Source: Pelagibius litoralis
GTDB lineage: Bacteria; Pseudomonadota; Alphaproteobacteria; Kiloniellales; Kiloniellaceae
Reading direction: 5' to 3'
Assembly: GCF_011683915.1 (NCBI RefSeq)
Contig: NZ_JAAQPH010000016.1
Location: 1 to 64,000, forward strand
DNA length: 64,000 bases
Below the pieces are notes generated by a model. That model saw nothing but the letters and a program-made list of their open reading frames with translations, was not told the DNA's origin and made no database searches. Both the position numbers and the translations under genes were made by a program. Of this stretch, positions 454 to 10,990 are shown piece by piece. How positions within the stretch are numbered: the stretch's first letter is position 1; each line of letters begins with the position of its first letter.

Positions 454-681
454 ATGCCCACTTGTAAAACAGATTTGGAAGTCAGGCTGTTTCAAGCCCT
501 CAAGCGTATCACGAAATACACGCCGCCAGACAACCTTCGCCGTCATGCCGAGGACGCATACGGATTGGAGGCAGACGAGGCCATTGAGATGGCATACGAG
601 AACGTTCTGTCCGAGGCCAAGAGTGCTGTCAAAGGCGTTCGCGCAAGGTCTGCTCTCTCTCCTGCGGGAGAGAAGCCGTGA
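454..681 (+). CDS. Hypothetical element protein, 75 aa
   Basis: Small charged helical protein of unknown function. Its last codons read SPAGEKP and are encoded by the same 18-base sequence that closes the next gene (APAGEKQ). That sequence doubles as the ribosome-binding site of the downstream gene and can fold into a hairpin. The stop overlaps the following GTG start (GTGA). Confidence 0.6.
   Translation: MPTCKTDLEVRLFQALKRITKYTPPDNLRRHAEDAYGLEADEAIEMAYENVLSEAKSAVKGVRARSALSPAGEKP
657..676 (+). promoter_or_regulatory. RBS cassette with UNCG-type hairpin, copy 1
   Basis: CTCTCC (657-662), TGCG (663-666) and GGAGAG (667-672) form a perfect 6-bp stem closed by a C(UGCG)G tetraloop. The 3' arm contains the Shine-Dalgarno sequence for the GTG start at 678. 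The 18-base core at 659-676 is identical to 868-885. Seen directly; that it controls translation is inference. Confidence 0.5.
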
Positions 682-890
682 CTAAGAAGTGCTTCGACTG
701 CGGAAAAGCCCTGACGTGGGTTGGCTCTGGCCCAGACTGGATGAACAGCGACCAGTGGGATGCGGTGAAGGCAGGCGACTGGTTTGCAGAGTGTGACAAA
801 GCCAGCCATCCGAATGGCCGGTGCTATTTCCGTGAAACGCGCGGTGTCCCGACACTAAAGCCAAAAGCTCCTGCGGGAGAGAAGCAATGA
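678..890 (+). CDS. Small Cys-containing element protein, 70 aa
   Basis: Starts with GTG overlapping the upstream TGA (GTGA), behind a strong GGAGAG ribosome-binding site. The N-terminus has a CFDCGK zinc-knuckle-like pair and two more Cys follow at about residues 38 and 48, so a single bound metal is plausible. It ends in the same PAGEK-type tail as the gene before it. No family recognised. Confidence 0.6.
   Translation: MTKKCFDCGKALTWVGSGPDWMNSDQWDAVKAGDWFAECDKASHPNGRCYFRETRGVPTLKPKAPAGEKQ
868..885 (+). repeat. RBS cassette, copy 2 of the 18-base direct repeat
   Basis: CTCCTGCGGGAGAGAAGC is identical to 659-676 and sits the same distance, one base, from the next start codon (ATG 887). It folds with a 4-bp stem around the same TGCG loop. 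It encodes the PAGEK tail of the upstream protein in the same reading frame. Confidence 0.6.
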
Positions 891-3270: not shown

Positions 3271-3905
3271 GAATCAAGCCCATTCTCTTCTCCGAGCCGA
3301 TGGTGCGGGCGATCCTTGACAGCAGGAAGTCGCAGACAAGGCGGGTGCTGAAAACGCAGCCGGAGTCTCACCTGCGGTTCTCGGTTCTGCACGACGACGT
3401 TGCCATCTTTCGCACGCACGGCGGGATGCGCCAGGACGTGAAGGTTCCCTACGCCCCCGGCGACCGGCTCTGGGTCCGGGAGACGCACAGCATTGTACCC
3501 AAGACGGCTTATTGGCACGACGGATCGATCCCCCATCAGGAGAACGGCGACAACTGGGCCGTCTACCGCGAGGGCTGGGAGAGATCGGCCCCGACCTGGA
3601 AACCCTCCATCCACATGACCCGCTGGGCGTCTCGGCTCACCCTGGAAGTGACCGCCGTCAAGGTCGAGCGCGTGCAGGATATCAACGAAGCGGATGGAAG
3701 GGCGGAGGGTGTCGAGCACTTCGGTATTGGCTGGCGGGCATTCAAAGGTGAGCCACCCGTTTTGCACGCCCGGTACGCATTCCAAGACTTGTGGAACTCC
3801 CTCAACGCCAAGCGCGGCTATGGCTGGGACGTAAACCCCTGGGTAGTTGCTATCACCTTCAAGGCCCATCACTGCAACATCGATGCAATGGAGCCCCAGC
3901 CATGA
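3267..3905 (+). CDS. Phage ASCH/PUA-like domain protein, 212 aa
   Basis: The pattern MRIKPILFSEPM, then SRKSQTRRVL, GDRLWVRET and a final WASRLTLEVTAV block is typical of a phage protein family with an ASCH (PUA-like) fold thought to bind RNA or modified bases. Family members are often labelled morphogenetic protein without experimental support. ATG 3267 overlaps the upstream stop as ATGA, which decides the start against a longer open frame. Its TGA overlaps the next ATG. Confidence 0.6.
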   Translation: MRIKPILFSEPMVRAILDSRKSQTRRVLKTQPESHLRFSVLHDDVAIFRTHGGMRQDVKVPYAPGDRLWVRETHSIVPKTAYWHDGSIPHQENGDNWAVYREGWERSAPTWKPSIHMTRWASRLTLEVTAVKVERVQDINEADGRAEGVEHFGIGWRAFKGEPPVLHARYAFQDLWNSLNAKRGYGWDVNPWVVAITFKAHHCNIDAMEPQP

Positions 3906-4075
3906 CCCACCCCCGCCTTATCGTGAACAACGATGAGCCCGCGGCCGAGCAGCAGAAAGACGCGCAGCGCCAGGCTGAGGCCAAGCCCGATCCTGTCTTC
4001 TCGTTCATAGGAAAGCTTGTGGTCGTGGCCTTCTTCTACATCGTCTGCATTGCAGCAATAGGATTGAGCGAGTGA
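3902..4075 (+). CDS. Small single-pass membrane protein, 57 aa
   Basis: A charged, Gln-rich N-terminal half (residues 1-32) is followed by one hydrophobic span at about residues 33-54. Start ATG 3902 and stop TGA 4073-4075 overlap the neighbouring genes (ATGA and GTGA). It could be a membrane tether or a small phage inner-membrane protein; no family is recognised. Confidence 0.55.
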   Translation: MTHPRLIVNNDEPAAEQQKDAQRQAEAKPDPVFSFIGKLVVVAFFYIVCIAAIGLSE

Positions 4076-5019
4076 CCATCATCGACCGCGCCGGCCTGTT
4101 CGATATCTCAGAAGCGACTTATCACGCCGATCCTGTGAAGGTGCCATCGCTCTCCAGTTCCATCGGCAAGAAGCTCATCAACCAGTCGCCGCGACATGCC
4201 TTCGACGCCCACCCCAGGCTAAACCCTGACCACCAGGTCGAGAACCGTACCATCTACGACCTGGGCAGCGCCGCTCATAAGATCATGCTGGGTAAGGGCG
4301 CTGAGTTGGTGGTGATCGACGCCGCCGACTACAAGACGAAGGCCGCCAAGGAAGCCCGAGACGACGCCTATGCCGCCGGCAACACGCCGTTGTTGCCTCA
4401 CCAGTACGAGAACGCATTAGCCATGGTGAAGGTCGGCCGACAGCAGCTAGACGCCCACGAAGACGCCTCCGTCGCATTCACCGATGGCAAACCGGAAGTT
4501 ATGATGGTTTGGCAGGAGGGTGATGTTTGGTGCCGCGCTTTGCTCGATTGGCTGCCCAACACGGGCCGCGTCTTCCACGATTACAAAACTACAGCCATGA
4601 GCGCGAACCCAGAAACGTATGGCCGCACGCTGTTCAATCTCGGCTTCGACTTCCAAAGCGCGTTCTATCGCCGCGGCATTCGCGCCGTGATGGGGATAGC
4701 CGATCCAATCTTCGAATTTGTCGTCCAGGAGAATACGGCGCCCCATGCGCTCTCTGTCGTCGGGTTGCCTCCCGCCGCCCTGGACGAAGCGGAAATCGAC
4801 GTGCAGCGCGCCATTGACCTCTGGAACACCTGTCTATCCAACGACTGTTGGCCCGGCTATTCCCGCCGAACCTATTACGTCGACCCGCCCGGCTATCTCA
4901 TGGCGCAACGCCTTGACCGCGAGGCCCGCGACAGCCTGCAGACCGTCGAGCCCGGCAAGGAAATGCTTGGGACCATGATGGACTGGCAGCGACCACTTGC
5001 AAAAGGAGACGCAGCTTGA
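4072..5019 (+). CDS. PD-(D/E)XK exonuclease, RecE/DUF3799-like
   Basis: 315 aa. Probable 5'-3' double-strand exonuclease that resects phage DNA ends for single-strand annealing. Visible active-site pattern: a His in GSAAHKIML (about residue 67), the acidic residue in CRALLDWLP (about 157) and FHDYKTT (about 167), matching the D-x(n)-D/E-x-K core of RecE-like and DUF3799 nucleases. GTG start overlaps the previous stop (GTGA). The next gene is a Sak4-like ATPase, the usual partner in phage recombination modules. Family assignment is by motif only. Confidence 0.75.
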   Translation: MTIIDRAGLFDISEATYHADPVKVPSLSSSIGKKLINQSPRHAFDAHPRLNPDHQVENRTIYDLGSAAHKIMLGKGAELVVIDAADYKTKAAKEARDDAYAAGNTPLLPHQYENALAMVKVGRQQLDAHEDASVAFTDGKPEVMMVWQEGDVWCRALLDWLPNTGRVFHDYKTTAMSANPETYGRTLFNLGFDFQSAFYRRGIRAVMGIADPIFEFVVQENTAPHALSVVGLPPAALDEAEIDVQRAIDLWNTCLSNDCWPGYSRRTYYVDPPGYLMAQRLDREARDSLQTVEPGKEMLGTMMDWQRPLAKGDAA

Positions 5020-6236
5020 GCTATACATTTCGCCCCGCTGTCCGAGAACAGTGTCACACGTTGACCGGCTTCGCTGGCCCATCCGGATCCGGCAAGACCT
5101 ACTCGGCGCTCCTCTTTTCGCAGGGTTTGGCTGAGGGCCGGCCCATTGCCATGATCGATACCGAGGGCGGGCGCGGCCTGCACTACGCCGATCAGTTCGA
5201 CTATCTCTACTCCGAACTGAACGCACCCTTTACGCCGCTGCGATACCTTGAGGCCATCAAGGCCGCCGCTGATGCCGGCGCAGGCGTGATCATTGTCGAC
5301 AGCACCAGTCACGAACATGAGGGCCCCGGTGGCGTGCTGGAAATGCACGAAACCGAGCTGGACCGAATGGCCGGTGACGACTGGCGCAAGCGCGAGGCGT
5401 GCAACTTCGGGGCTTGGAAGAAACCGAAGGCCGAACACAACCGCTTCGTCAACGAAGTGCTGCAGATCAAGGCGCATCTGGTGTTCTGCTTCCGGGCCCG
5501 CGAAAAGCTGAAGCTGGTGAAGAACGCGAGGGGAAAGATGGAGCCTGTACCTCAGGGCTGGCAGCCGATCTGCACAAGCTCATTCGAGTACGAAATGACA
5601 GCGCTCCTGATGCTCCCGCCCAACAGCATGGGCAAACCCGATTTCCAGGAGGGCGCCACCAAGCTCCAGGAGCAGCATCGACCGATCTTCAATACCGGCG
5701 GCGCGATCACAGCCGATATGGGCAAGCGCCTGGCCATGTGGGCTGCCGGCGCTCAGCAGACCAGCAAGGACCGGCAAGGCATTCCCAACGAGGACTCCGC
5801 CAAGCTCCTATCAGACGCCCGGGAAGTAGCCACGCTGGGCCGAGACGCCATGAACAAGCACTGGCAGTCACTCGACAAGGCTGAAAGGTCAGTCGTCGTG
5901 TCCATCCTGGATGAGCTGAAAGAAACCGCCAGAAAGGCGGATGAAACCGGCAGCGAGGATGCTGTTCAGAACGACGACCTCTTCGCAGATGACGAAGCGC
6001 CCGCCGACGCCCCGGCGACAGAGGAACCGCCCACCGCGGACGAACGCAGCGAAGCCGAATCCTTGGTCTCAAACATGACCGCAGCATTGAAGCGCTGCGA
6101 CTCGGTTATGGCCGTGGACAAGCTTTGGAAGAACTACGCCGACCAGATCAAAGCCCTTCCCGAGGATCAGCGTAAGGAGCTGCAGGATGTCCGCTCGAAG
6201 CGCGACGAAGAACTGATGCCCAGGAAGGCCGGATAA
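5016..6236 (+). CDS. RecA-like P-loop ATPase, Sak4 type
   Basis: 406 aa. The N-terminal half is a RecA-like ATPase: Walker A GPSGSGKT at about residues 21-28, MIDTEGG after strand 2 and Walker B AGVIIVDS at about residue 90. This layout matches the phage nucleotide-binding proteins (AAA_24) that include Sak4 annealing proteins. The C-terminal third is acidic and low-complexity, then a helical tail. Start is TTG overlapping the previous stop (TTGA), behind AAAGGAG. Next to the exonuclease it probably acts in homologous recombination or replication fork repair of the element. Confidence 0.75.
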   Translation: MSYTFRPAVREQCHTLTGFAGPSGSGKTYSALLFSQGLAEGRPIAMIDTEGGRGLHYADQFDYLYSELNAPFTPLRYLEAIKAAADAGAGVIIVDSTSHEHEGPGGVLEMHETELDRMAGDDWRKREACNFGAWKKPKAEHNRFVNEVLQIKAHLVFCFRAREKLKLVKNARGKMEPVPQGWQPICTSSFEYEMTALLMLPPNSMGKPDFQEGATKLQEQHRPIFNTGGAITADMGKRLAMWAAGAQQTSKDRQGIPNEDSAKLLSDAREVATLGRDAMNKHWQSLDKAERSVVVSILDELKETARKADETGSEDAVQNDDLFADDEAPADAPATEEPPTADERSEAESLVSNMTAALKRCDSVMAVDKLWKNYADQIKALPEDQRKELQDVRSKRDEELMPRKAG

Positions 6237-6238
6237 CA

Positions 6239-6766
6239 ATGCCTGACCTTCCCCGCACCCCCAAGGCGTTCGCGAAGCGCTGGCCAGCGTTCAAGGGCTG
6301 GCTTCAGGCACGGGGCTCTGAGGTTCGCACACCGACGAACCAGTACGAGCTGGCCCGCTTCACAACACCGGAGGGTGTCGGAGTGGTGTACCGCAACGGA
6401 AGAGAAGTCATATCCGCCTGGAAGGGTGGCGCTGATGACGCTTTCTCCGCGTTCCTGGACGCCAAGCCGTGGCGCGTTGGCGTGAAGACGAAGACGCCCG
6501 GCAAGTCAAAGAGAGATCGGCGGATCAACGATATCATGGACCGCGACGGCAACGCCTGTTGCTACTGCGGCGGGCTCTTTGCGCCTCGTGGTGAGTTTGC
6601 CAGCCCCGGCAAGAAGATGACGATTGAACACTTCGTTCCGCGCACCAACGGCGGGCCGGACAATCTGGCCAACTCCGCCCTCGCACATCAGGACTGCAAC
6701 AACCGGGCAGGCAATCTGTCGGTCGCCGAGAAAATGCGGCTTCGAGATGAAATGAGGGAGGGCTGA
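6239..6766 (+). CDS. HNH endonuclease
   Basis: 175 aa. The C-terminal half carries the HNH fold: CCYCGG (zinc pair), MTIEHFVPRTNGG with the catalytic His, then ALAHQDCNNRAG with the conserved Asn and second zinc-side Cys. The N-terminal 80 residues are a separate basic domain that may bind DNA. In phages such nucleases serve packaging, replication or homing; being in the early recombination block argues against a terminase partner here. Starts two bases after the previous stop. Confidence 0.8.
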   Translation: MPDLPRTPKAFAKRWPAFKGWLQARGSEVRTPTNQYELARFTTPEGVGVVYRNGREVISAWKGGADDAFSAFLDAKPWRVGVKTKTPGKSKRDRRINDIMDRDGNACCYCGGLFAPRGEFASPGKKMTIEHFVPRTNGGPDNLANSALAHQDCNNRAGNLSVAEKMRLRDEMREG

Positions 6767-6767
6767 A

Positions 6768-7658
6768 ATGGGCGAGACTACCAAGATCGGCTGGGTGCGG
6801 AACACAGACGGCTCAAAGGGCGCGACCATCAACTTTTGGATCGGCTGTACCGAAGTCAGCGACGAATGCGACAACTGCTATGCTCGCGAACTGTCCGAGC
6901 GCTATGGCTGGGCAGAGTGGGGGGCCGGCCAGCCGAGATACAAGACCAAGGGCGCGGTCAAGAACGTCCGGGCGCTGGCGCGCAAGGCCGCGGCCCGCGC
7001 CGCGAAGGAGCCTGGCTACCGGACCCGCGCCTTCACCAACAGCCTCAGCGACTTTTTTGATACCGAGATCGATCGGGCCTGGCGCGAGGAAGCACTGGAC
7101 GAAATCGATGCCGCGCCCTTCGTAGACCTCCTGATTCTCACCAAGCGCCCGAAAGTAGCGCAGCAGGTCATGCAGGAGCGCTACGGCAACCAAGCGCCCA
7201 AGAACATCTGGATCGGCACCACTGCGGGCACTCAGAAGATGTGGGACCTCCGAATTCCCATCCTCGGCAAAACGCCCGCCGCCGTGCGCTTTGTCAGCGT
7301 TGAGCCCATGCTCGAGGGGATCGACCCGGGTAATGCGTTCGATCCGCCCATCAGCGATGACGGCTTCCAGCCCGTTGGCTGGGTTATCTGCGGTGGGGAA
7401 AGTGGAACCATGGCGCGGACCTTCGATGTGGCCAATGCCCGCGCTCTCCGGGACCAGTGCAGATGGTCTGGAGTTCCCTTCTTCATGAAGCAGCTTGGCG
7501 CCCGCGCGGTGGATGAGATCAACGGTATTGCTGGCCGCAGCCTGAAAGTGGATCCGGATGTCGAAGCGATAATCAGGCGCCTCAAAAACCCTGCTGGCGC
7601 CGATCCCACCGAATGGCCCGCCGATCTGCGGGTACAGCAATTCCCGGAGGCAGCATGA
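6768..7658 (+). CDS. DUF5131 phage Gp37/Gp68-like protein
   Basis: 296 aa, the full family length. Near the N-terminus NFWIGCTEVSDECDNCYA gives a Cys-x6-Cys-x2-Cys cluster; later come LLILTKRP, NIWIGTT, RFVSVEPML and WVICGGESG, all hallmarks of the DUF5131 family found in phages and plasmids. The Cys cluster resembles an iron-sulfur or radical-SAM-type ligand set, but no activity is established. Placed between the HNH nuclease and the BCS1-like ATPase, overlapping the latter (ATGA). Confidence 0.85.
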   Translation: MGETTKIGWVRNTDGSKGATINFWIGCTEVSDECDNCYARELSERYGWAEWGAGQPRYKTKGAVKNVRALARKAAARAAKEPGYRTRAFTNSLSDFFDTEIDRAWREEALDEIDAAPFVDLLILTKRPKVAQQVMQERYGNQAPKNIWIGTTAGTQKMWDLRIPILGKTPAAVRFVSVEPMLEGIDPGNAFDPPISDDGFQPVGWVICGGESGTMARTFDVANARALRDQCRWSGVPFFMKQLGARAVDEINGIAGRSLKVDPDVEAIIRRLKNPAGADPTEWPADLRVQQFPEAA

Positions 7659-8884
7659 TCGATACAGTCTATCTCTGGCTGCAGCACCAGATCACCCAAA
7701 ACGATGTCTTCGCCGGGCTGCTTGGCGGGTCGGTGGTCGCTTCGGTTCTTTTCGGACTAAGGTCCGTTCCCGGCCGCCTTTGGCAAATCTACCTTTATCA
7801 GTTCACCGTCGAACTGGTTGTCCGAGACGTAGACGACTCATTTATGTGGATCAACGAGTGGCTTTCAAAGCAGTCCTACTCCAAGCGGAGCCGGCGCCTG
7901 TCTATCAGAACCATGCATGACCGTGACGGTGACCATTGGACTGTCTCAGCGGGTTTTGGGCGGCACTACTTTTGGCACCAGGGCCGTCTCCTTTGCGTCG
8001 AACGGTCGCTCACCGACGCGCCGGCCAGCACGGGCCAACAGAGGGAAAGCTTCAACCTACGCATGGCGACGCGGGATCAATCGAGAATGCGGGCACTCAT
8101 TCAAGAAGCCCGTAGCCAGCGCGACGAGATCGACCGAACCGACGTTTGGACCTTTGAAGACTACTGGTCGAGAACAGCGCGCCGGATTCCACGTCCCATT
8201 GATTCCGTGATCCTGCCAGATGACCAGATGTCCCGCATTACTGAGCGGGTTGACTGGTTCGAGAAAGCCCAACCCTGGCACGTCGACCGCGGCATTCCAT
8301 ACCGCTTTGGCATCCTGCTCAGCGGACCGCCCGGCTGCGGCAAGACATCAATCGCGGCCGCGCTGGCAGCCTATCTGCGCCGCCCCATCTATGCGCTCAA
8401 TCTCGGGTCGCTTGATGATGACAATGCCCTGGTGAAGGCAATGATTTCGGTTCCGTCTAACGCCGTATTGCTTCTTGAAGACATCGACGCGGCAAGGTCG
8501 TCCGGTAGCCGCACAGCAGAAACCGAAGGCAAGGACGAGCCCAAGGGGATCACGCTCAGCGCATTGTTGAATTCTCTGGACGGGGTGATAGCAACGGAGG
8601 GCCGTATCCTGGTCATGACGACGAATTTCCCCGACAAGCTGGACGCCGCCCTGATCAGGCCCGGCCGGGTTGATCTTTCTGAGCACATAGGGCCGCTTGG
8701 GGCCAATGAGGCGCGACGGCTCTTCCTGCGCTTCTTCCCCGAAGCCGAGACGATGGCCAGCATGCTGACCGAGGCGAGCTATGAGCCCCGCCCTGCTGCG
8801 GTCCTGCAAGGCCAACTGATGAGGCTGTCAGACCAACCTCTGCAAGCGTTGGAAGCGATCACCATCAGAGCGGAGGCAGCATGA
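7655..8884 (+). CDS. BCS1-like AAA ATPase with N-terminal membrane anchor
   Basis: 409 aa. One hydrophobic segment at about residues 17-35 precedes a BCS1-N-like region and an AAA module: Walker A GPPGCGKTS, Walker B AVLLLEDIDAA, and TTNFPDKLDAALIRPGRVD, the second-region/arginine-finger signature of BCS1 proteins. Mitochondrial BCS1 translocates the folded Rieske protein; bacterial relatives are poorly studied. Start ATG 7655 overlaps the DUF5131 stop and the next gene overlaps its TGA. Its job in a phage early operon is unknown: membrane remodelling, defence or DNA/protein extrusion are all possible. Confidence 0.82.
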   Translation: MIDTVYLWLQHQITQNDVFAGLLGGSVVASVLFGLRSVPGRLWQIYLYQFTVELVVRDVDDSFMWINEWLSKQSYSKRSRRLSIRTMHDRDGDHWTVSAGFGRHYFWHQGRLLCVERSLTDAPASTGQQRESFNLRMATRDQSRMRALIQEARSQRDEIDRTDVWTFEDYWSRTARRIPRPIDSVILPDDQMSRITERVDWFEKAQPWHVDRGIPYRFGILLSGPPGCGKTSIAAALAAYLRRPIYALNLGSLDDDNALVKAMISVPSNAVLLLEDIDAARSSGSRTAETEGKDEPKGITLSALLNSLDGVIATEGRILVMTTNFPDKLDAALIRPGRVDLSEHIGPLGANEARRLFLRFFPEAETMASMLTEASYEPRPAAVLQGQLMRLSDQPLQALEAITIRAEAA

Positions 8885-9054
8885 CCCCCAAAGCATCCGT
8901 CGCCGCCGCTGCCCTTGAACTGATCAAGGCCGTGATCCTGTCCGGCAAGGACGGGGCCGAAATGGAGATTGGCCCGGTCCACCAGGTCGGGGTTCAGATC
9001 CATGGGAAATGGCGGGTTACTGTCGAGAGGGTGGAGGAGATAGAAAATGGCTAA
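8881..9054 (+). CDS. Hypothetical element protein, 57 aa
   Basis: Short ORF running from ATG 8881 (overlapping the AAA ATPase stop as ATGA) to TAA 9052-9054. It reads as a helix of about 20 residues followed by a small beta-rich part ending VERVEEIENG. No motif. The GGAGG near its 3' end is the ribosome-binding site of the next gene, which overlaps it by eight bases. Confidence 0.55.
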   Translation: MTPKASVAAAALELIKAVILSGKDGAEMEIGPVHQVGVQIHGKWRVTVERVEEIENG

Positions 9055-9487: not shown

Positions 9488-9912
9488 TGGGCGAAGCAAC
9501 AACCATGGCTGACGATATGCGCGTTGACAGGGTTTGTGAGCGTCTGGGCAAATCAAAGTCCTGGCTCGACGACTGGTTGTCTCGCCACCCCGATCATCAC
9601 TATCATGACTTCCTGGGGAGGGATCGAGTATGGACGGAAAGTCAGTTTCAGCAGCTTCGAGGGGCGATCAAAACCGAGTCAGCGGCCTCCAAGTCAAGAC
9701 CGAGGGAAAGAAACTCTGGCTCAAAGGGACGGTCCGCGCCGGCAAGAAATCGCGACGAATCCGCGAAAGTACTGGCCTTGATTGCCGAACGAGAGGCGCG
9801 CGCCAGCTCGCAGAATCGCTCAGGATCACCAGGGAAAAGGAAGTCCTCGACGAGCTCGTCCACGGGTCGGTCCCGGCGGTCACCTTCTCCACGGCTGCGG
9901 CCGGTTACCTGA
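9487..9912 (+). CDS. Excisionase-like protein overlapping the integrase gene
   Basis: 141 aa. The first 60 residues (MRVDRVCERLGKSKSWL, then HDFLGRDRVWTESQFQQL) look like a MerR/Xis winged helix as in phage excisionases. The remaining 80 residues are Ser/Arg/Pro-rich low complexity and lie in the other frame of the integrase gene for 283 bases. Either the real protein carries a disordered tail created by overprinting or the C-terminal part is a by-product of the open frame. Start ATG 9487 shares bases with the previous TGA; 9505 is an alternative. Confidence 0.55.
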   Translation: MGEATTMADDMRVDRVCERLGKSKSWLDDWLSRHPDHHYHDFLGRDRVWTESQFQQLRGAIKTESAASKSRPRERNSGSKGRSAPARNRDESAKVLALIAEREARASSQNRSGSPGKRKSSTSSSTGRSRRSPSPRLRPVT

Positions 9913-10805
9913 AGACGGTTCCAAACCTTGGAAAGACAGACCACGACAACGTCAAGGCGTTGATCAAGCGATTTGGAGGGGTGGTCGTTTCAGCCCTAAG
10001 TGCCGAGGATATCAACGCTTTCTATGATGACCGGTATCCCAAACACGCCGCGAGTACGATCCAGCGCCATCAGACCAGCCTCCGTTCAATTCTAAGCCAC
10101 GCCCAAGAGCAAGGCTGGCTGGCACTCCCGCCGCCTTATGCCCGGCCAAAGACAACGATTAAGAAGGGCAAGCACGCCAACAAGATGTTCCTGCCCGGCG
10201 AAGGTGAGCGGATCGTTGACGCAGCCGATATCCGCGGCCAGGCCATCCTGGCAACGCTCTTCGTGACCGGCGCCCGGGTGGCCCAAGCGCTCTATCTACC
10301 CAAGGAAAGTTTCATTCTGGCACCAGGCCGGAGTCGGATTTTCTTCCCAGACAGTAAAAACGACAACGCCTACGACCGGGCATTGCACGACTACGCCCGC
10401 CAGAAGATCGAGGCGTGGCTGGAGGAACGAGGCGACGACGACGAGCCTGCCCTCTTCCTGACCGACAAGGGCCTGCCCTACGCCCCCCGCAGAGCCTCCG
10501 GCGGCCAGATCCGCAAACTGTTCAACAGCGCCCGCGACAAGGCTGTCGCCTCGCTCAAGGCGGCTGGTGAGCGAGATAGGGCCCGTTTCCTATCGTCGGC
10601 GACCCCACACTGGATGCGCCACAACTTCGCCAACCAGGTTCGCGCGGCCGGCGGCGACGTCAAGGACGTGATGGACGCCGGTATGTGGGAAGACGAGCGG
10701 ATCGTTATCCGTCACTACTTCGGTGACGCGCCAAAGCGGGTGGAAGCAATGACGCGCGGCCTCGGCTTCGGCAGTTTTGTGACAGGATCGAAAAAGAAGG
10801 CGTGA
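9630..10805 (+). CDS. int: Tyrosine integrase of the element
   Basis: 391 aa, site-specific recombinase that inserts and excises the element at tRNA-Val. Seen: a basic arm-binding N-terminus, a core-binding region, then the catalytic set: Arg in VTGARVAQAL (about residue 213), HWMRHN (about 332), and the nucleophile Tyr in RHYFGD (about 366). ATG 9630 has an excellent GGGGAGGG site seven bases upstream, inside the excisionase-like gene. The att fragment starts 37 bases after its stop. All catalytic residues appear present, so the enzyme may be active. Confidence 0.93.
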   Translation: MDGKSVSAASRGDQNRVSGLQVKTEGKKLWLKGTVRAGKKSRRIRESTGLDCRTRGARQLAESLRITREKEVLDELVHGSVPAVTFSTAAAGYLKTVPNLGKTDHDNVKALIKRFGGVVVSALSAEDINAFYDDRYPKHAASTIQRHQTSLRSILSHAQEQGWLALPPPYARPKTTIKKGKHANKMFLPGEGERIVDAADIRGQAILATLFVTGARVAQALYLPKESFILAPGRSRIFFPDSKNDNAYDRALHDYARQKIEAWLEERGDDDEPALFLTDKGLPYAPRRASGGQIRKLFNSARDKAVASLKAAGERDRARFLSSATPHWMRHNFANQVRAAGGDVKDVMDAGMWEDERIVIRHYFGDAPKRVEAMTRGLGFGSFVTGSKKKA

Positions 10806-10842: not shown

Positions 10843-10893
10843 TCTCCCTTCACACGGGAGAGGTCACTGGTTCAATCCCAGTATCGCCCACCA
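10843..10893 (+). other. Element attachment site: 3' fragment of tRNA-Val(CAC)
   Basis: Anticodon stem CTCCC/GGGAG with loop TTCACAC (anticodon CAC at 10851-10853), T-arm ACTGG-TTCAATC-CCAGT, and acceptor 3' strand ATCGCCC-A-CCA are all present and pair correctly. The 5' half is missing: nothing upstream matches the expected GGGCGAT acceptor strand or a D-arm. It is therefore a displaced tRNA end, not a functional gene. The identity segment used for crossover most likely lies from the anticodon stem to the 3' end. Confidence 0.85.
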
Positions 10894-10990
10894 TTTCTTG
10901 GAATCTGGCGAAAGCGGAAAACACAGCTGCCCGCTGTCGGCTCCAATCGCCACCACCAATGCGCAGCCGACCGCCTTTAAGCGGAAGAAC

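Follow-up and report, generated by a model that had tools for sequence, protein, structure and literature searches.

A BCS1-type AAA ATPase gene bounded by direct repeats in an integrated prophage of Pelagibius litoralis

Mitochondrial BCS1 (BCS1L) combines a BCS1-specific domain with an AAA module, has the Rieske protein as its cargo and assembles as a heptamer whose two cavities accommodate folded substrate, whereas the bacterial Rieske protein is placed by Tat, as stated in the available part of the source (PMC11143374). Orthologues of BCS1 were described in 2021 in several members of all three jumbo-phage groups (Iyer et al., PMC7824862, available part); of the literature that pairs BCS1 with phage, this is the only paper that is, by its title, about phage genomes. 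Here we describe a BCS1-type gene in a 64,000-nucleotide stretch of the Pelagibius litoralis genome (contig NZ_JAAQPH010000016.1, positions 1–64,000; hereafter the window). The jumbo-phage orthologues resemble the window protein in having BCS1_N followed by AAA and in being alignable over most of their length, but the 2021 study covered jumbo phages and the window copy lies in an integrated prophage with an integrase. What is new is an integrated prophage as the carrier of an already described phage BCS1 family. The suggestion in the original prediction that this copy may do something new stands in part: its carrier is unlike most of those listed, but the presence of BCS1 in jumbo phages was already on record.

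The window ORF at 7655–8884 of the plus strand encodes a full-length BCS1-type AAA ATPase of 409 amino acids, in which a predicted N-terminal anchor is followed by BCS1_N and AAA domains; its ATG at 7655 and its end at 8884 are those originally given. Pfam assigned residues 30–185 (7742–8209) to BCS1_N, the BCS1-specific middle domain (6e-24; 85.4 bits, cut-off 28.1), and residues 220–345 to AAA (3.4e-21); the BCS1 lid model reached 20.8 bits with a cut-off of 27, and PHROG 7485 matched residues 5–406 (4e-90). Three stretches of the AAA part contain residues that are invariant in both a 15-row and an 18-row alignment: the Walker A motif GPPGCGKT (residues 224–231; 8324–8347), with G224, P226, G227, G229 and K230; the Walker B motif LLLEDID (residues 272–278; 8468–8488), with E275, D276 and D278; and the region TTNFPDKLDAALIRPGRVD (residues 322–340; 8618–8674), with N324, R335 and R338. 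The last of these, the sensor 1 and arginine-finger region, is the motif that had been singled out as the BCS1 hallmark. The membrane anchor holds as a prediction: residues 17–35 (7703–7759) form a predicted single membrane segment with a mean Kyte–Doolittle hydropathy of 1.82, and the net charge after the hydrophobic segment exceeded that before it in 31 of the 35 family rows, a bias that fits a topology with the N terminus outside and the AAA part inside. Hydropathy was at least 1.6 in only 19 of these 35 rows.

A sequence search of the PDB yielded five distinct sequences below 1e-30, each named mitochondrial chaperone BCS1. With an AlphaFold2 model of the monomer (18 input sequences, mean pLDDT 83.0, pTM 0.69) as the query, rows 1–17 of a Foldseek search were Bcs1, with a TM-score of 0.78 on the query for 8tp1, and the two best Bcs1 chains aligned with the model at Z 30.5 over 367 residues (9gsn) and Z 29.9 over 393 residues (8tp1). 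Mitochondrial BCS1 is the best match in both sequence and structure, and the Pfam domains, the Bcs1-only PDB matches and the Bcs1 fold of the model bear out the BCS1 class assigned at the outset. The AAA protein YjoB of Bacillus subtilis has a comparable fold (Z 20.7), but its identity to the window protein is 18% and it ranks below all listed full-length Bcs1 chains. If the window protein follows Bcs1, its ring would be a heptamer and not the hexamer first supposed (PMC11143374, available part); because Tat handles the Rieske protein in bacteria, according to the same source, that cargo is not expected for a phage protein and the phage cargo would have to be a different one.

Like the window protein, FtsH is a membrane-anchored AAA protein, but it has a protease domain and a pore-loop segment that are both missing here. 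The M41 metalloprotease domain was not among the 19 Pfam families listed for the window protein, and the FtsH model scored 58.8 bits against a cut-off of 600. The missing segment, which we take to be the substrate-gripping pore loop of FtsH, would lie between Walker A and Walker B (8402–8428). It was absent from all 35 aligned BCS1-type rows, absence being defined as a gap in at least five of the segment's seven columns (L048 retains one tyrosine), and present in all six aligned FtsH rows, which were drawn from 26 FtsH-like ORFs found; mouse and yeast Bcs1, compared with the window protein, likewise lack an FtsH-type insertion at this place. The absence of the segment disfavours an FtsH-like threading unfoldase, one of the activities originally proposed, and favours a Bcs1-like handling of folded proteins. 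The BCS1-type genes of phages OMKO1 (L038, 8001–9524) and CcrPW (L035, 7968–9194) carry the annotation FtsH or cell division protein, which is at odds with the missing segment.

The expectation that the gene would be conserved among phages was borne out: the window protein matched 214 phage records, all below 60% identity, and in 86 of these a single place in the record accounted for 80% or more of the query. Among the best 60 listed of these 214, identity ranged from 26.8 to 32.7% and 54 records were larger than 200 kb; 350 plasmid records also matched, none over 80% of the query. A scan of viral contigs gave at least 79 loci, of which the best 17 (L046–L062) were used. At a threshold of 1e-3, BCS1_N was found in 14 of 14 other phage rows and in 15 of the 17 viral-contig rows, that is, in 29 of 31 viral relatives, which owing to near-twins (L060/L061, L053/L058) are not 31 independent cases. 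L060 is without BCS1_N, and the second viral-contig row that lacks it is presumably L061, a near-twin of L060. In a tree of 35 rows, built without mitochondrial rows, the window protein paired with L046 (95/94), and the next to join this pair were four Caulobacter/Brevundimonas phages (96/94). L046 (IMG/VR 3300038856_000075, 63.5 kb; the same contig as L125) is the closest relative found, with 38% identity over 376 columns; unlike the window, it has the gene in a replication-gene context with a DnaB helicase, and DUF5131 is missing from the record. Another carrier, Citromicrobium phage RXM, has an annotated HflK-family protein, a tyrosine recombinase and an annotated AcrVA2 (L032, 1539–2303).

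In bacterial genomes the domain was rare. BCS1_N occurred in 1 of 385 genomes of the class, that of the host itself, and in 5 of 398 genomes of the phylum including the host, four of them over the cut-off, so that 'phage only' would be too strong a description. In a sample of 61 genomes of the order, a match to the whole profile was found only in the window's genome, the others listed covering the AAA part. The class count and the order sample rule out a recent capture from a host, which the original prediction had named as a possible refutation and of which we saw no sign. Taken together, the long matches in phages, the rarity in bacterial genomes and the position in the tree make the window gene look like a member of an old phage lineage rather than a fresh host gene. 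BCS1-like AAA genes in two host-class genomes (L127, 1231–2442; L128, 949–2397) have surroundings that look non-phage by eye.

By our searches the family includes PHIKZ286 of phage phiKZ, which is only distantly related to the window protein and whose AAA domain is longer; it scored 43.7 bits for BCS1_N (cut-off 28.1) and matched the window protein in two stretches, one of them at 29% identity over 253 columns (4e-32). Joining the published phiKZ data to BCS1 is a link made here on the strength of these matches. Of two papers on phiKZ (PMC12571901, PMC10914614; available parts), one names PHIKZ286 as an ATPase and the other as uncharacterized. By Grad-seq it sediments in heavy fractions, outside the ribosomal clusters, in large complexes whose partners are given as unknown (PMC10914614, available part). 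Elsewhere it is predicted with 70S ribosomes and has cross-links to rplL, rplK and rplJ, the 'L1 stalk' in the authors' wording (PMC10449902, available part), a signal that may reflect membrane-bound ribosomes or co-fractionation. PHIKZ286 is listed as non-core in the available part of a knock-down screen, where its knock-down lowered ChmA (++) and no plaque effect is marked; since 56 of the 75 screened genes gave some effect, the ChmA effect is weak when taken by itself (PMC12571901). The heavy complexes, the ribosome cross-links and the drop in ChmA without plaque loss suggest a role as an accessory factor. PHIKZ286 and PHIKZ285 (L130, 6904–9212) overlap by 4 bp and are both reported at the ribosome (PMC10449902, available part); we rejected them as a conserved pair, as no ORF in any of the other 36 loci, among them that of OMKO1, matched PHIKZ285.

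The window gene lies near the right end of its prophage, which is marked by a tyrosine integrase (9630–10805, plus strand; Pfam, PHROG) and a 52-bp attachment core that forms the 3′ end of tRNA-Val(CAC) (10844–10895, plus strand). The core has one further copy in the genome, within an intact tRNA-Val(CAC) on contig C36 (1353–1404); a 24-base search pattern from the core gave two matches in the genome. Contig C36 (18,487 bases) encodes proteins that match tail, internal virion (phrog_418, 1.1e-19), endolysin and virion structural families. The shared core, these virion genes and the integrase point to an integrated prophage split over two contigs, with C36 as its presumed other end, the two being joined through the 52-bp core only. 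The nearest matches of a 926-aa structural protein of C36 were in Pseudomonas phages such as vB_PaeP_Tr60_Ab31 (46%), followed by two records with siphovirus-style names and by Pelagibacter phages (where it is annotated as internal virion protein), and from the nearest matches we infer that the phage may be podovirus-like. In L161, the interval from the tail genes to the attachment site encodes a leucine carboxyl methyltransferase-family protein (5915–6880; 5.5e-43). A host protein encoded in the window shows 85–86% identity to records of Pelagibius and of Rhodospirillales MAGs, as would suit an alphaproteobacterial host.

Upstream of the BCS1 gene, and identified by Pfam and PHROG, are genes on the same strand for an exonuclease VIII-type PDDEXK protein (DUF3799; 4072–5019), an AAA_24 protein of unknown function (phrog_1366; 5016–6236), an HNH endonuclease (6239–6766) and a DUF5131 (Gp37/Gp68) protein (6768–7658), in keeping with the phage operon originally recognized. 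The DUF5131 protein weakly matched radical SAM mobile pair protein A (40.8 bits, cut-off 355), and one of its phage homologues bears a radical SAM annotation. The BCS1 start codon (ATG at 7655) shares bases with the stop codon of the DUF5131 gene (TGA, 7656–7658) and has GGAGG just upstream. On the plus strand of the window, the 14-bp direct repeat CGGAGGCAGCATGA occurs just twice, at 7645–7658, where it spans the ribosome-binding site, the ATG and the upstream stop, and at 8871–8884, where it spans the end of the BCS1 gene and the ribosome-binding site and ATG of the next, small ORF (8881–9054, plus strand), so that at either edge of the BCS1 ORF a ribosome-binding site and a start/stop overlap fall within the repeat. 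The repeat reads as the boundary of a BCS1 cassette, and the ATGA junction may accordingly be viewed as a module boundary and not as evidence of joint function.

ORFs 678–890 and 1202–1426 are bounded in the same register by repeats of their own, 18 and 20 nt long, which gives three single ORFs with repeats of 14–20 nt in the window (659–890, 1185–1429 and 7645–8884). Among 17 window gene starts, at least 11 nt were shared by 3 of 16 adjacent gene pairs and by 0 of 120 non-adjacent pairs, and shuffling of the gene order reached three adjacent repeat pairs in a fraction of 0.002, in a test that was devised after the repeats had been seen and that used gene starts chosen by the analyst (uncertain starts at 1682–2484 were excluded, and the row 3891–4075, of which only the end is a real ORF end, was dropped, although its junctions are among the 17 examined for 4-bp overlaps). 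In 14 other BCS1 phage loci used as a control, 0 of 293 adjacent and 7 of 3,390 non-adjacent pairs shared at least 11 nt, and the repeat boundary was rejected on this count as a general trait of phage BCS1 genes. In lambda, POI1126 and Atu_ph08 the counts were 1 of 88 adjacent and 0 of 1,070 non-adjacent pairs, the sole adjacent case being in Atu_ph08 (L165, 1 of 27).

The original prediction had read the overlap as a sign that BCS1, DUF5131 and the HNH/exonuclease genes share a function, and their sharing of one operon, with the 4-bp DUF5131/BCS1 overlap, speaks for such a pathway. Against it, 6 of the 17 listed window junctions are 4-bp overlaps, the BCS1 ORF is repeat-bounded, and the proposed gene-neighbour search revealed no second pairing: with the host's own genome as positive control, DUF5131 was found in none of the 31 other viral records with a BCS1-type gene, of which several are fragments. 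Conversely, DUF5131 occurred in 27 of 385 genomes, apparently the same class sample as that used for BCS1_N, and 26 of these 27 were without BCS1_N; 40 listed of 143 DUF5131 phage records and 60 listed of 214 BCS1-type records had no overlap. We consider the shared pathway highly improbable and, on the lack of co-occurrence and the boundary repeat, reject it. The remaining neighbours gave a similar picture. When 14 window operon genes were compared with the ORFs of 32 BCS1-type loci, L075 included, there was one weak HNH match (3.4e-5). Among the 25 largest groups of related ORFs in 37 loci, the widest, besides BCS1 itself and opposite-strand shadow ORFs, spanned five loci, L046 and L125 being one contig; four of its members were checked and all matched HNH, two of them below the cut-off. 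The other groups spanned three or four loci each, mostly within sub-lineages. ORF groups this narrow indicate that no partner gene is common to most BCS1 carriers, and the phages in which the family sits are unrelated.

Our tentative reading, held at a little less than even confidence, is that the protein is a membrane-tethered BCS1-type chaperone or translocase for folded protein that serves as an accessory helper of infection. Anchored at its N terminus and followed by the BCS1 middle domain, a cytoplasmic, presumably heptameric AAA ring would act as a motor that handles folded protein cargo. The gene would be transcribed along with the early genes and would form a self-contained cassette rather than a part of a DUF5131 machine, and the motor would improve infection while being dispensable, a benefit that is carried over from the published PHIKZ286 data.

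Three other roles have to be weighed against that of an accessory chaperone. Iyer et al. proposed for jumbo phages (PMC7824862, available part) that the protein is a virion assembly factor, which would bind and move folded proteins during membrane-proximal head assembly, and the C36 protein that matches internal virion proteins, a head-packed kind, would suit such a role. We regard it as unlikely: the window gene sits in a recombination operon near the integrase, the phiTE copy is two genes from a DNA primase/helicase and the L046 copy is near the DnaB helicase, none of the three being among virion genes, and knock-down of PHIKZ286 had no marked plaque effect in the available part of the screen (PMC12571901). 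In 13 BCS1-type records nothing matched the C36 structural protein, but this search was run without a positive control and shows little, also as to whether the prophage is of the same phage type as other BCS1 carriers. A counter-defence function, in which a membrane-bound remodelling ATPase dismantles host membrane or defence complexes, seems rather unlikely to us. It would account for the sporadic, cassette-like occurrence, and the authors of the knock-down screen suggest that genes affecting nothing but ChmA may be of importance under competition or where the host has other defences (PMC12571901, available part), but no defence-related partner is common to the BCS1 loci, and the anti-phage ATPase models matched weakly and in the AAA part only, IteA at 31.6 bits against a cut-off of 510 and PADLOC IetA at no more than 37.8 bits. 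A role in superinfection exclusion or lysogenic conversion, with expression from the prophage, is one that we rate as quite improbable; the predicted anchor, the prophage location and a cassette boundary as expected of an accessory gene would agree with it, but within its operon the BCS1 ORF overlaps the preceding gene, and 54 of the 60 listed phage carriers (of 214) exceed 200 kb and are not prophages of such a kind.

If the chaperone reading is extended to the family, phages of many kinds may share a membrane-tethered BCS1-type motor that acts during infection at the interface of ribosome and membrane and inserts or translocates folded proteins of phage or host, a phage-run route beside Tat that is borne, at least here, on a repeat-bounded cassette; this wider proposal is doubtful at present. 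BCS1 is known for one mitochondrial job, yet phages have kept diverse BCS1 genes. The scattered PHIKZ286 data are now tied to a protein family whose structures have been solved, which opens the question to direct tests, and the prophage copy could be a simpler genetic system than the jumbo phages in which to find the cargo.
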